NCBI RefSeq assembly: GCF_024105735.1
Contig: NZ_JAAAML010000001.1
Coordinates: forward strand, 1,125,809 to 1,189,808
DNA: 64,000 nucleotides
Source: Parahoeflea alexandrii
GTDB lineage: Bacteria > Pseudomonadota > Alphaproteobacteria > Rhizobiales > Rhizobiaceae
Direction of reading: 5' to 3'
The position numbers were made by a program, and so were the translations under genes. Of the stretch, positions 42,470 to 44,961 are shown piece by piece; positions within the stretch are counted from its first letter, which is position 1; each line of letters begins with the position of its first letter. Below the pieces are notes generated by a model that did no database searches, was not told the DNA's origin, and was given only the letters and a program-made list of their open reading frames with translations.

Positions 42470-43093
42470 ATGTCTCCATTCGTCGCCCCTGCCATCGCCG
42501 GTCTGCTACTCGGCGGCTCGCTGATCATCGCCATCGGCGCCCAGAACGCCTTCATCCTGCGCCAGGGCCTGCTCAGACAACACGTGTTCATCCTGTGCCT
42601 GATCTGCGCGCTGTCGGATGCACTGCTGATCGGGCTCGGTGTGGCGGGGCTCGGCGCGATCATTGCCGGGTCCGGGCTGCTGATCGCGCTGGTGACGCTT
42701 GGCGGCGCGGCATTCCTCGCGGTCTATGCCTTCCTGGCGCTCAGGCGGGCGATCTCGCCATCGACACTGGAGGCTGCGAAAACAGGACCGGGTTCGCTGA
42801 AGGCTGCGGTGCTGACCTGCCTCGCCTTCACTTTCCTCAATCCGCATGTCTATCTCGATACGGTGTTGCTGGTCGGCGGGCTGAGCGGCCGCTACGAGGG
42901 CACCGCGCGGCTGGCGTTCGCGATCGGTGCGATGTCGGCATCGTTCATCTGGTTCTTCGGGCTTGGTTATGGTGCGCGGGTGCTCGAACCGCTGTTTGCC
43001 AAACCGTCTGCATGGCGCGTGCTCGACGGACTGATTGCGCTGGTGATGGCGGCCTTGTCGGTGTCGCTGCTGGTGCGGTTCTTCACCGGCTGA
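42470..43093 (+). CDS. LysE/ArgO-family amino acid exporter
   Basis: 207 residues with six spans. The N-terminal landmark GLLLGGSLIIAIGAQNAFIL is the LysE/ArgO signature. TFLNPHVYLDTVLLVGGLS is the second. The family exports lysine, arginine or analogues. The start lies five bases after the SRAP stop. A GC-rich hairpin without a T-run (43102-43120) follows. Confidence 0.92.
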   Translation: MSPFVAPAIAGLLLGGSLIIAIGAQNAFILRQGLLRQHVFILCLICALSDALLIGLGVAGLGAIIAGSGLLIALVTLGGAAFLAVYAFLALRRAISPSTLEAAKTGPGSLKAAVLTCLAFTFLNPHVYLDTVLLVGGLSGRYEGTARLAFAIGAMSASFIWFFGLGYGARVLEPLFAKPSAWRVLDGLIALVMAALSVSLLVRFFTG

Positions 43094-43146
43094 AAGCCGC
43101 TTGCCCGGATCTTGACCGGGCGGATGCAATCGGGGATAAGAACAGC

Positions 43147-43203
43147 ATGAAAACGGCACACGGCGCACGCGCCACCTGCATCTGCGGCATCATTATTCGC
43201 TAG
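43147..43203 (+). CDS. Putative Cys-codon leader peptide upstream of cysS
   Basis: An 18-codon frame, [18 protein letters not shown], starts at ATG 43147 after GGGGATAAG and stops at TAG 43201. Cys codons at positions 11 and 13 flank an Ile. It ends 85 bases before cysS. GAAAACGGC at its start (43149-43157) can pair exactly with GCCGTTTTC after its stop (43219-43227), which is followed by the T-rich GTCTTCTTT. This resembles an attenuation leader sensing charged tRNA-Cys. Translation is not demonstrated; a chance frame is possible. Confidence 0.5.
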
Positions 43204-43288
43204 CTCACCGCTGGCTCGGCCGTTTTCGTCTTCTTTCACCAAACAGGACAAACGACCCGGGCCCGGGGGCCGGCATCGGGGAGTTGAC

Positions 43289-44746
43289 ATGACCGAGCTC
43301 AAGTTCTGGAACACGCTGACGCGCGCCAAGGAAGAGTTCCAGCCAATCGATAAGAACAATGTCCGGATGTATGTCTGCGGACCGACGGTCTATGACTTTG
43401 CCCATATCGGCAATGCACGGCCGGTGATCGTGTTTGACGTGCTGTTCCGGCTCTTGCGCCATGTCTACGGCGCGGATCACGTCACCTATGTGCGCAACAT
43501 CACCGACGTCGACGACAAGATCAACGCCCGGGCGTTGAGGGATTATCCCGATCTGCCGCTCAATGAGGCGATTGCCAAGGTCACGGCGAAGACCGCCGAC
43601 CGGTTTCACAAGGATGCGGCAGCACTCGGCAGCCTAGAACCGACGCATGAGCCCCGCGCCACCGCCCATATCGACGGCATGGTGAAAATGATCCAGCGGC
43701 TCATCGACAAGGGCAACGCCTATGTCACCTCCGGCCGCGAGGGCCGCGAAGTGCTGTTTGCGGTCGGCTCGATGCCCGATTACGGCAAGCTGTCGAACCG
43801 CAAGCTCGAAGACCAGCAGGCCGGCGCCCGCATCGCGGTGGAAGACCACAAGCGCAATCCGGCTGATTTCGTGCTGTGGAAGGAATCGGCCGCCGACGAG
43901 CCCGGCTGGGACGGGAGTTTCACCGAGGGCGGCGAGAGCATCACCATCCATGGCCGCCCCGGCTGGCACATCGAATGCTCGGTGATGAGCGAGCATCATC
44001 TGGGTGAGACCTTCGACATCCACGGCGGCGGGCTCGACCTGATCTTTCCGCATCACGAAAACGAGATCGCCCAGTCCTGCTGCGCCCATGGCAATGACCG
44101 GATGGCGAACCTGTGGATGCACAATGGCTTTCTGCAGGTCGAGGGCAAGAAGATGTCAAAATCCGACGGCAACTTCGTCACCATCGCTGAGCTCTTGGAA
44201 ACCGAAAAATTCGGCGGCCGCAAATGGCCGGGCGAGGTGCTGCGGCTTGCGATGCTGATGACGCATTACCGAGAGCCGATCGATTTCAGCGTGAAGCGGC
44301 TCGAGGAGGCGGAGGGGATCTACAATCGCTGGGCCGATCTCGCTCTGGGCACAGACACTTCAGGCTATAGCCCGAAGCTTCCGGAAGGGTTTCCACTGTT
44401 GGACGATCTCAACACACCGTTGGTCATCAATCAATTGCAAGGACTGTATAAGGAGGCCAAGGCTGGGGATGCGAGCGCCCGCATTGCTTTTCGGTTGGGG
44501 TTGGATTTGCTTGGGTTCGATGAAATCGAATATGCTTCCAAGGCGTTGCTTGGCTTTGGCCTGACTGAGGAACAGCAATCAAGAATCGAAGCTTTGCGTG
44601 ACGAGCGACTCGAGCTCCTCAAGGCCAAGAACTGGGCCGAAGCCGACCGGATCCGTGATGAGTTGCTGGAGCAGGGCATCCAGCTCAAGGACGGCAAGAA
44701 TCCGGAGACTGGTGAGCGGGTGACGACATGGGAGGTCCGGCGGTGA
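43289..44746 (+). CDS. cysS: Cysteinyl-tRNA synthetase
   Basis: 485 residues; CGGGGAG precedes ATG 43289. The zinc ligand Cys30 and HIGN lie in [29 protein letters not shown] provides another zinc ligand, and [14 protein letters not shown] supplies the His ligands. KKMSKSDGN is the second ATP-binding motif. The C-terminal anticodon-binding region includes [20 protein letters not shown]. It charges tRNA-Cys. A candidate Cys-codon leader precedes it, suggesting feedback on its own product. Confidence 0.97.
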
Positions 44747-44763
44747 GTTCGAGCTTGGGCAAG

Positions 44764-44921
44764 GACCCCTCCCCAACCCCTCCCCACAAGGGGGAGGGGC
44801 TCGGCTCCGTGAGTTTGGCGCCTGCCGAACCATCCATCAACACTGCAAAGAGGGGATTATTTGATGGGATGGTGCGGCTTGGTAGCCCCTCCCCCTTGTG
44901 GGGAGGGGTTGGGGAGGGGTC
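44764..44921. repeat. Palindromic intergenic element with 38-base perfect arms
   Basis: Bases 44764-44801 and 44884-44921 are exact reverse complements, rich in CCCCTCCCC and ending ACAAGGGGGAGGGGCT. Inside, ACCATCCATCAA (44829-44840) nearly mirrors TTGATGGGATGGT (44861-44873), so the whole 158 bases fold as one long stem. A T-run (44922-44925) follows the right arm. No transposase frame is present. It looks like a miniature palindromic repeat and could terminate cysS transcripts. Confidence 0.85.
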
Positions 44922-44961
44922 TTTTGTATCCCCGAATTTGATGTCGCGGGGTACCTGAACG

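Follow-up and report, generated by a model that had tools for sequence, protein, structure and literature searches.

The window analysed here is a stretch of 64,000 nucleotides of Parahoeflea alexandrii (contig NZ_JAAAML010000001.1), and all coordinates refer to it. The cysteinyl-tRNA synthetase gene cysS lies downstream of a gene for a LysE-type translocator that ends at 43093, and the interval between the two genes holds a promoter, a short leader ORF, and a series of segments with alternative pairing partners (Table 1). As given in a preliminary description of this DNA, the leader has 18 codons from an ATG at 43147 to a TAG at 43201–43203, carries Cys codons at positions 11 and 13, and stops 85 bases before the cysS ATG at 43289. 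The long-range stem described there was likewise recovered letter for letter, as GAAAACGGC at 43149–43157 is the exact reverse complement of GCCGTTTTC at 43219–43227, downstream of the leader stop. The leader pattern has one occurrence in this genome, and the closest named relative was a Hoeflea record (L052, 75% identity, among the best 80 of 588 matching stretches). Directly 3′ of cysS, an ORF in 44728–44958 translates to PSPTPPHKGEG and PSPLWGGVGEG and resembles an intergenic repeat.

Table 1. Features of the cysS leader region in the window, with the basis of each assignment
Feature	Position	Strand	Basis
Promoter, TTGACC (43112–43117), 17 bases, GATAAG (43135–43140)	43112..43140	+	Sequence; spacing conserved in 89/89 leaders
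Leader ORF, stop TAG	43147..43203	+	Sequence; frame kept in 176/177 leaders chosen blind to frame
Segment 1, GAAAACGGC, leader codons 1–4	43149..43157	+	Pairs with 43219–43227; swap test z −11.4, 0/5000
P0, small hairpin GGCG-CACG-CGCC, N-terminal insert of longer leaders	43162..43173	+	Predicted in window fold
Cys-11, Ile-12, and Cys-13 codons TGC ATC TGC, presumed stall site	43177..43185	+	Sequence; Cys in 176/176 leaders
Segment A, GCTAGC around the stop codon	43199..43204	+	Pairs with 43210–43215; swap test z −8.7, 0/5000
Segment 2 (B), GCTGGCTCGGCCGTTTTCGTC, alternative partner of segment A, segment 1, and segment 3	43210..43230	+	Swap tests, alignments, folding
Pyrimidine-rich tract, TTTTCGTCTTCTTTCACCA, possible anti-Shine-Dalgarno	43223..43241	+	80% pyrimidine over 136 leaders; co-variation with Shine-Dalgarno
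Segment 3 (C), GACAAACGACCCGGGCC, partner of segment 2 or segment 4	43247..43263	+	Swap tests 2:3 and 3:4
Segment 4 (D), CGGGGGCCGGCATCGG, hairpin partner of segment 3, reaches the Shine-Dalgarno; boundary approximate	43264..43279	+	Window minimum-energy structure; 3:4 swap test
cysS Shine-Dalgarno, GGGGAG	43278..43283	+	Sequence
cysS, cysteinyl-tRNA synthetase, 485 aa, presumed target	43289..44746	+	Pfam PF01406, E 2.2e-105; 1 match in the genome

Conservation of the leader frame and its promoter

cysS was found in 17 of 18 genus, 198 of 199 family, 117 of 121 order, and 85 of 86 class sample genomes, and upstream stretches were taken for 80 order, 80 family, and 40 class hits, besides the loci from searches (named records were the best 80 of 588 matching stretches). 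The samples overlap, and one genome may come from two collections (L006 and L052; L044 and L059). Leaders were called with a filter on promoter-like spacing, an ATG, 8–34 codons, a Cys, and two or more Ile or Val among the last ten residues; its counts left out L017, L115, and L022 (CysS start unusable) as well as L018–L021 and L023 (repeats of one genome). The leader set chosen without a promoter rule left out L024, L029, L046, and L127 plus exact repeats, and 41 of 160 leaders failing the promoter, Cys, and Ile rule were dropped from another leader set. Exact repeats were removed before the Shine-Dalgarno core, distance, and frame counts, and near repeats before each swap test.

In three overlapping Hyphomicrobiales sets (the first of which includes L068, a record titled Rhodobacteraceae), the content filter was passed upstream of cysS in 96 of 110, 62 of 80, and 62 of 80 regions, against averages of 1.4, 1.0, and 1.1 passes for dinucleotide shuffles and 0, 2, and 0 for the reverse strand. 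Examples are MKTVICIICRKIIR in Rhizobium (L088), MKTSFAICGICIIG in Mesorhizobium (L093), and MKTVTTICINGCIIIR in Devosia (L090). Common Cys patterns were mostly CIC, CIIC, or CGIC, with an IIIR-TAGC end; a search of NCBIfam with two leaders (20 and 23 residues) returned no family. The preliminary description had made its reading depend on conservation past close strains, and the leader was found spread through the Hyphomicrobiales samples. The leader before cysS is real and is kept in most of the Hyphomicrobiales sampled.

The frame was assessed in a set chosen blind to ORF content, with the start taken from the TTG[ACG] distance and the end from the GCTAGC-GCTGG motif only. The start-to-end distance was a multiple of three in 181 of 183 cases (lengths 39–93 bases); when each locus contributed a single promoter, the frame was kept in 176 of 177 distinct leaders, and among these an earlier stop occurred in 0 of 176, Cys in 176 of 176, and two or more Cys codons in 131 of 176. 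This conservation is strong evidence that the leader ORF is translated.

TTG[ACG] was located 35–38 bases upstream of the leader ATG in all 89 leaders of a set chosen without the promoter rule (in 5 of the 89, an inner ATG was selected by hand), and GATAAG in the window ends six bases upstream of the leader ATG. From the −35/−10 spacing, transcription is predicted to start at, or no more than about two bases from, the leader AUG. A generic consensus scan of the window gave 0 promoter-like sites and did not pick up the leader promoter. A 4-base Shine-Dalgarno core was present before the leader ATG in 25 of 201 cases and before cysS in 139 of 201. The plausible ribosome site formerly assigned to the leader, GGGGATAAG, was not confirmed; it contains GATAAG and is better read as the −10 box of the promoter. 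The leader RNA thus probably begins at its AUG, with leaderless initiation.

Pairing segments and the modelled switch

Pairings were assessed with a swap test, in which each segment was scored by duplex energy against its own partner and against partners from other loci (relatedness is not removed by this procedure), and the main set comprised 208 leaders cut to 108 under 75% identity. For the 1:2 stem, own partners gave −15.5 kcal/mol versus −12.7 kcal/mol for swapped ones (z −11.4, 0 of 5000), so the co-variation that had been proposed as a check on the long-range stem was found. The stop-codon hairpin A:2 gave z −8.7 (0 of 5000) in the same 108 leaders, and in alignment A1, 100% of its cells were paired, yet five of its six pairs were invariant. 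The 2:3 pairing reached z −6.0 (0 of 5000, 108 leaders) and z −5.2 in the order sample, and was weak in the family sample (z −1.8, 203 of 5000); its signal was absent in an earlier, smaller swap test of 63 leaders (z −0.14) and appeared with the wider set. The 3:4 pairing gave z −4.9 (0 of 5000) in a run with segment 3 placed by fit to segment 2, a placement that biases the 2:3 value of that run and whose boundary may enter segment 4, which is the case in the window; in the same run, pairing of segment 3 (C) with the Shine-Dalgarno gave z −2.75 (15 of 5000). Among the swap controls, which otherwise lay close to zero or had the reverse sign, one stood out: the bases preceding segment A, tested against segment 2, gave z −2.6 in the order sample (30 of 5000), though +2.7 for the family leaders.

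Across 49 aligned sequences, 94.5% of cells were paired for 1:2 and A:2 together and 89.2% for 2:3, compared to 27–50% for slid versions. Changes on both sides were observed in four pairs of 1:2 plus A:2 and in five pairs of 2:3; by both-side changes alone, 2:3 was not above some slid versions (7 cells versus up to 15). The P0 hairpin had a mean z of −1.3 against base shuffles in 55 longer leaders, with 16 of the 55 at 5% or less.

In the folding model, RNA cut after the pyrimidine-rich tract formed 1:2 and A:2 almost fully, and the full-length RNA was split between 1:2 and 2:3. Placing a ribosome over the first Cys codon in the model brought the 1:2 index down from 0.96 to 0.27 and that of 2:3 up from 0.84 to 1.17 (means of 105 leaders). 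With the 5′ end covered up to the first Cys codon, the expected number of 2:3 pairs rose from 3.1 to 5.8 (77 family leaders) and from 4.5 to 7.7 (46 order leaders). The minimum-energy structure of the window contained 1:2, P0, A:2, and a hairpin of segments 3 and 4 when free, and a long 2:3 hairpin when the 5′ end was covered. The window leader, with its 18 codons, calls for a further assumption, since one ribosome stalled at Cys-11 would not cover segment 1: either another ribosome sits on the start codon, or dynamics or timing play a part. The pairings would accordingly make up a 1:2 / 2:3 / 3:4 switch, in which each pairing is supported by co-variation and the shift of segment 2 from segment 1 to segment 3 comes from the model. 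Pairings that exclude one another and depend on ribosome position, as expected of a ribosome-mediated attenuator, are present by co-variation and in the model. The core of the preliminary description, a Cys-codon leader with ribosome position altering a long-range stem, is backed both by the frame (176 of 177) and by the co-variation of that stem.

Proposed control of cysS and alternative explanations

We consider it highly probable that the leader is a ribosome-mediated attenuator that sets cysS expression according to how much charged tRNA-Cys is available, whichever the output; that the leader precedes the gene of the very enzyme charging tRNA-Cys counts for this. The leader most likely responds to cysteine, and it would do so in the direction set out below. 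The RNA would start at or next to the leader AUG, where a ribosome would initiate without a Shine-Dalgarno. With ample Cys-tRNA, the ribosome would complete the leader and depart, giving an OFF state in which segment 2 is taken up by segment 1 and by segment A at the stop codon, and segments 3 and 4 form a duplex next to the ribosome site of cysS. With scarce Cys-tRNA, ribosomes would pause on the Cys codons and segment 1 would stay covered; in this ON state, segment 2 would pair with segment 3, 3:4 would open, and the pyrimidine-rich tract would be kept in the 2:3 loop. The output would be ribosome access to cysS. For this full version, an attenuator with control of cysS translation, we see the chances as evenly balanced.

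Its main competitor shares the sensor and differs in the output: with ample cysteine, 1:2 and the stop-codon hairpin would form and the T-rich tract would then end transcription, which a stalled ribosome would prevent. Such termination is consistent with a T content of 51% in the 10 bases after segment 2 versus 10–23% around them (116 leaders; the anchor favours T at the first positions), with the nearly complete 1:2 and A:2 in RNA cut at the tract, and with the 3′ U run and the proposal of termination for a cysS motif of Rhodobacterales, uORFC-8-2 (PMC8632094). However, the window scan placed no terminator-like site on the + strand, both of its hits being on the − strand. A run of five T occurred in only 4 of 136 tracts, against 70 of 136 with a run of four, and five successive T followed segment 3 in 7 of 123 leaders. 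The TTTT of the tracts mostly faces AAAA of segment 1 (by eye), and the tract is 80% pyrimidine versus 48% at a control place (136 leaders). The T-rich run reported earlier is present, but as part of a pyrimidine-rich tract, and a terminator-like nature is not supported. Furthermore, as the tract is transcribed before segment 3, 2:3 would come about after the point at which it could prevent termination at the tract, and it would be left without a role. The tract also co-varied with the cysS Shine-Dalgarno in 107 family leaders (z −5.5, 0 of 5000), weakly so in the order sample (z −2.2 to −2.3, 67–83 of 5000, 47 leaders), with controls at −1.2 to +0.9. Taken together, the scarcity of T runs, this co-variation, and the late position of segment 3 favour translation control, which seems the likelier output, and we regard termination as rather unlikely. 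Modelled access to the Shine-Dalgarno barely changes: a stalled ribosome produced no consistent change (p 0.21–0.79, 123 leaders), and the largest effect of covering the 5′ end was a rise of the unpaired Shine-Dalgarno from 0.37 to 0.39 (last Cys, 77 family leaders, p 0.005), with no significant change of tract:Shine-Dalgarno pairing in the folding model.

That the leader senses something else, or that its peptide or RNA acts elsewhere in the manner of peTrpL, which acts in trans in Sinorhizobium meliloti (PMC7298713), with the cysteine link being secondary, appears improbable. Ile makes up 27% of leader codons, more than Cys with 12%, and in 49 of 201 leaders there is just one Cys codon, as a different signal might lead one to expect; against this, Cys was present in 176 of 176 leaders chosen without a Cys rule, the leaders were collected beside cysS, and frame and pairings are kept despite wide variation in leader length and in the N-terminal residues. 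A chance ORF next to a chance repeat can be dismissed. Folded alone, the window RNA does not stand out (z −1.0; 31 of 200 shuffles were as stable), but conservation, frame, and swap tests exclude chance.

Relation to known leaders and distribution

The closest published system is uORFC-8-2, of which 145 examples have been described upstream of cysS, exclusively in Rhodobacterales, and read as ribosome-mediated attenuation (PMC8632094, RNA Biol 2021). Like the window leader, it has a short ORF that immediately precedes cysS, is enclosed by RNA stems, and contains Cys codons after a conserved AUG (PMC8632094). Its tandem Cys codons are usually at positions 14–15, whereas those of the window leader are at 11 and 13; it has a terminator U run, whereas the Hyphomicrobiales leader lacks a U run and has a predicted leaderless start and the IIIR-TAGC end; and its hosts are Rhodobacterales, to which the window host does not belong, the leader here being found in Hyphomicrobiales. 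The rnTrpL/peTrpL attenuator of S. meliloti is likewise a rhizobial leader peptide whose RNA starts at the leader AUG, as is predicted here, but it has Trp codons, a transcription terminator, and another gene downstream, and its start and function have been measured (PMC7298713). Cysteine leader peptides of Actinobacteria are also encoded by short ORFs that carry Cys codons upstream of cysteine genes, with no obvious terminator; they differ in preceding cys operons and cbs rather than cysS, in lacking conserved hairpins, and in their phylum (PMC1262725).

Rfam 15, including T-box, gave no gathering-level match in the window, and a permissive search of 43050–43350 (E up to 5) returned only sR16, on the other strand and with 22.1 bits versus a cut-off of 70. 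A description of a cysS leader in Hyphomicrobiales was not found in the open-licence full-text literature, which is weak evidence of absence; ‘cysS’ is absent from the main text of an alphaproteobacterial motif survey (PMC1273637), and ‘cysS’ and ‘cysteinyl’ from the main text of an S. meliloti small-proteome paper. The earlier statement that no rhizobial cysS leader of this form is known thus stands for the rhizobia, for which none was found, but needs qualifying by the cousin of this leader that is already published for the neighbouring Rhodobacterales (PMC8632094).

Among further alphaproteobacterial loci, those of one family (f74), which is probably Rhodobacterales, passed the leader filter in 22 of 30 cases and in 28 of 30 without the promoter rule, versus 0.1 and 1.5 for shuffles. 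Leaders of this family often have tandem Cys, e.g., MNTASIIIICCITR, and fit the description of uORFC-8-2, except that the tandem Cys in MNTASIIIICCITR is near 10–11 and not at 14–15; swap tests gave z −4.5 for 1:2, −3.2 for A:2, and −3.5 for 2:3 (0, 4, and 0 of 5000). We tentatively suggest, at somewhat less than even confidence, a single cysteine attenuator that predates the split between Hyphomicrobiales and this family, in which a leaderless ORF at the 5′ end would be both sensor and strand 1 of a terminator-less four-segment switch controlling ribosome access to cysS. Should the leader control cysS as proposed, rhizobia and their relatives would possess an order-wide control point tying the cysteine-charging enzyme to its own product, with the first codons of the leader ORF doubling as a switch strand, and the question of a common origin of cysteine attenuators in two alphaproteobacterial orders would be raised. 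Direct testing would be possible in S. meliloti, already studied for its leaderless trp attenuator.

In the outgroup, 0 of 13 non-Hyphomicrobiales loci (L119–L131) passed the filter. Other alphaproteobacterial families passed in 3 of 39 loci, of which only L304 is leader-like by eye; L294 is leader-like too, but fails the promoter rule. Within Hyphomicrobiales, the loci at which no leader was found upstream of cysS include those of Bartonella (L112, L113, L117), Jiella (L073, L118), and Aureimonas (L074), which may reflect leader loss or a different upstream arrangement.

Several loci deviate in form. Short leaders missed by the filter were observed in Agrobacterium (L071, 1852–1959; L084, 1851–1958) as well as in L259 and L266; these (MKTTICTCC, MRTMICTCC, MKLTICLCC) end right after the Cys codons and have lost the IIIR-TAGC end, and in L071 the 1:2 stem is rebuilt with other letters (AACGATCTG with CAGATCGTT, by eye). 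In L056, L057, L058, and L068 (Labrenzia, Roseibium, and the record titled Rhodobacteraceae), a single Cys is located one residue before the last, e.g., MMTATRNIISITIICS, and segments 2 and 3 have different letters. Finally, L034 has a leader-like ORF, MTTLTAHSRACIIICKIIG, about 370 bases upstream of the chosen start, followed by a second CysS-like start; the counted start is probably wrong, and the locus may carry a broken or repeated cysS start.
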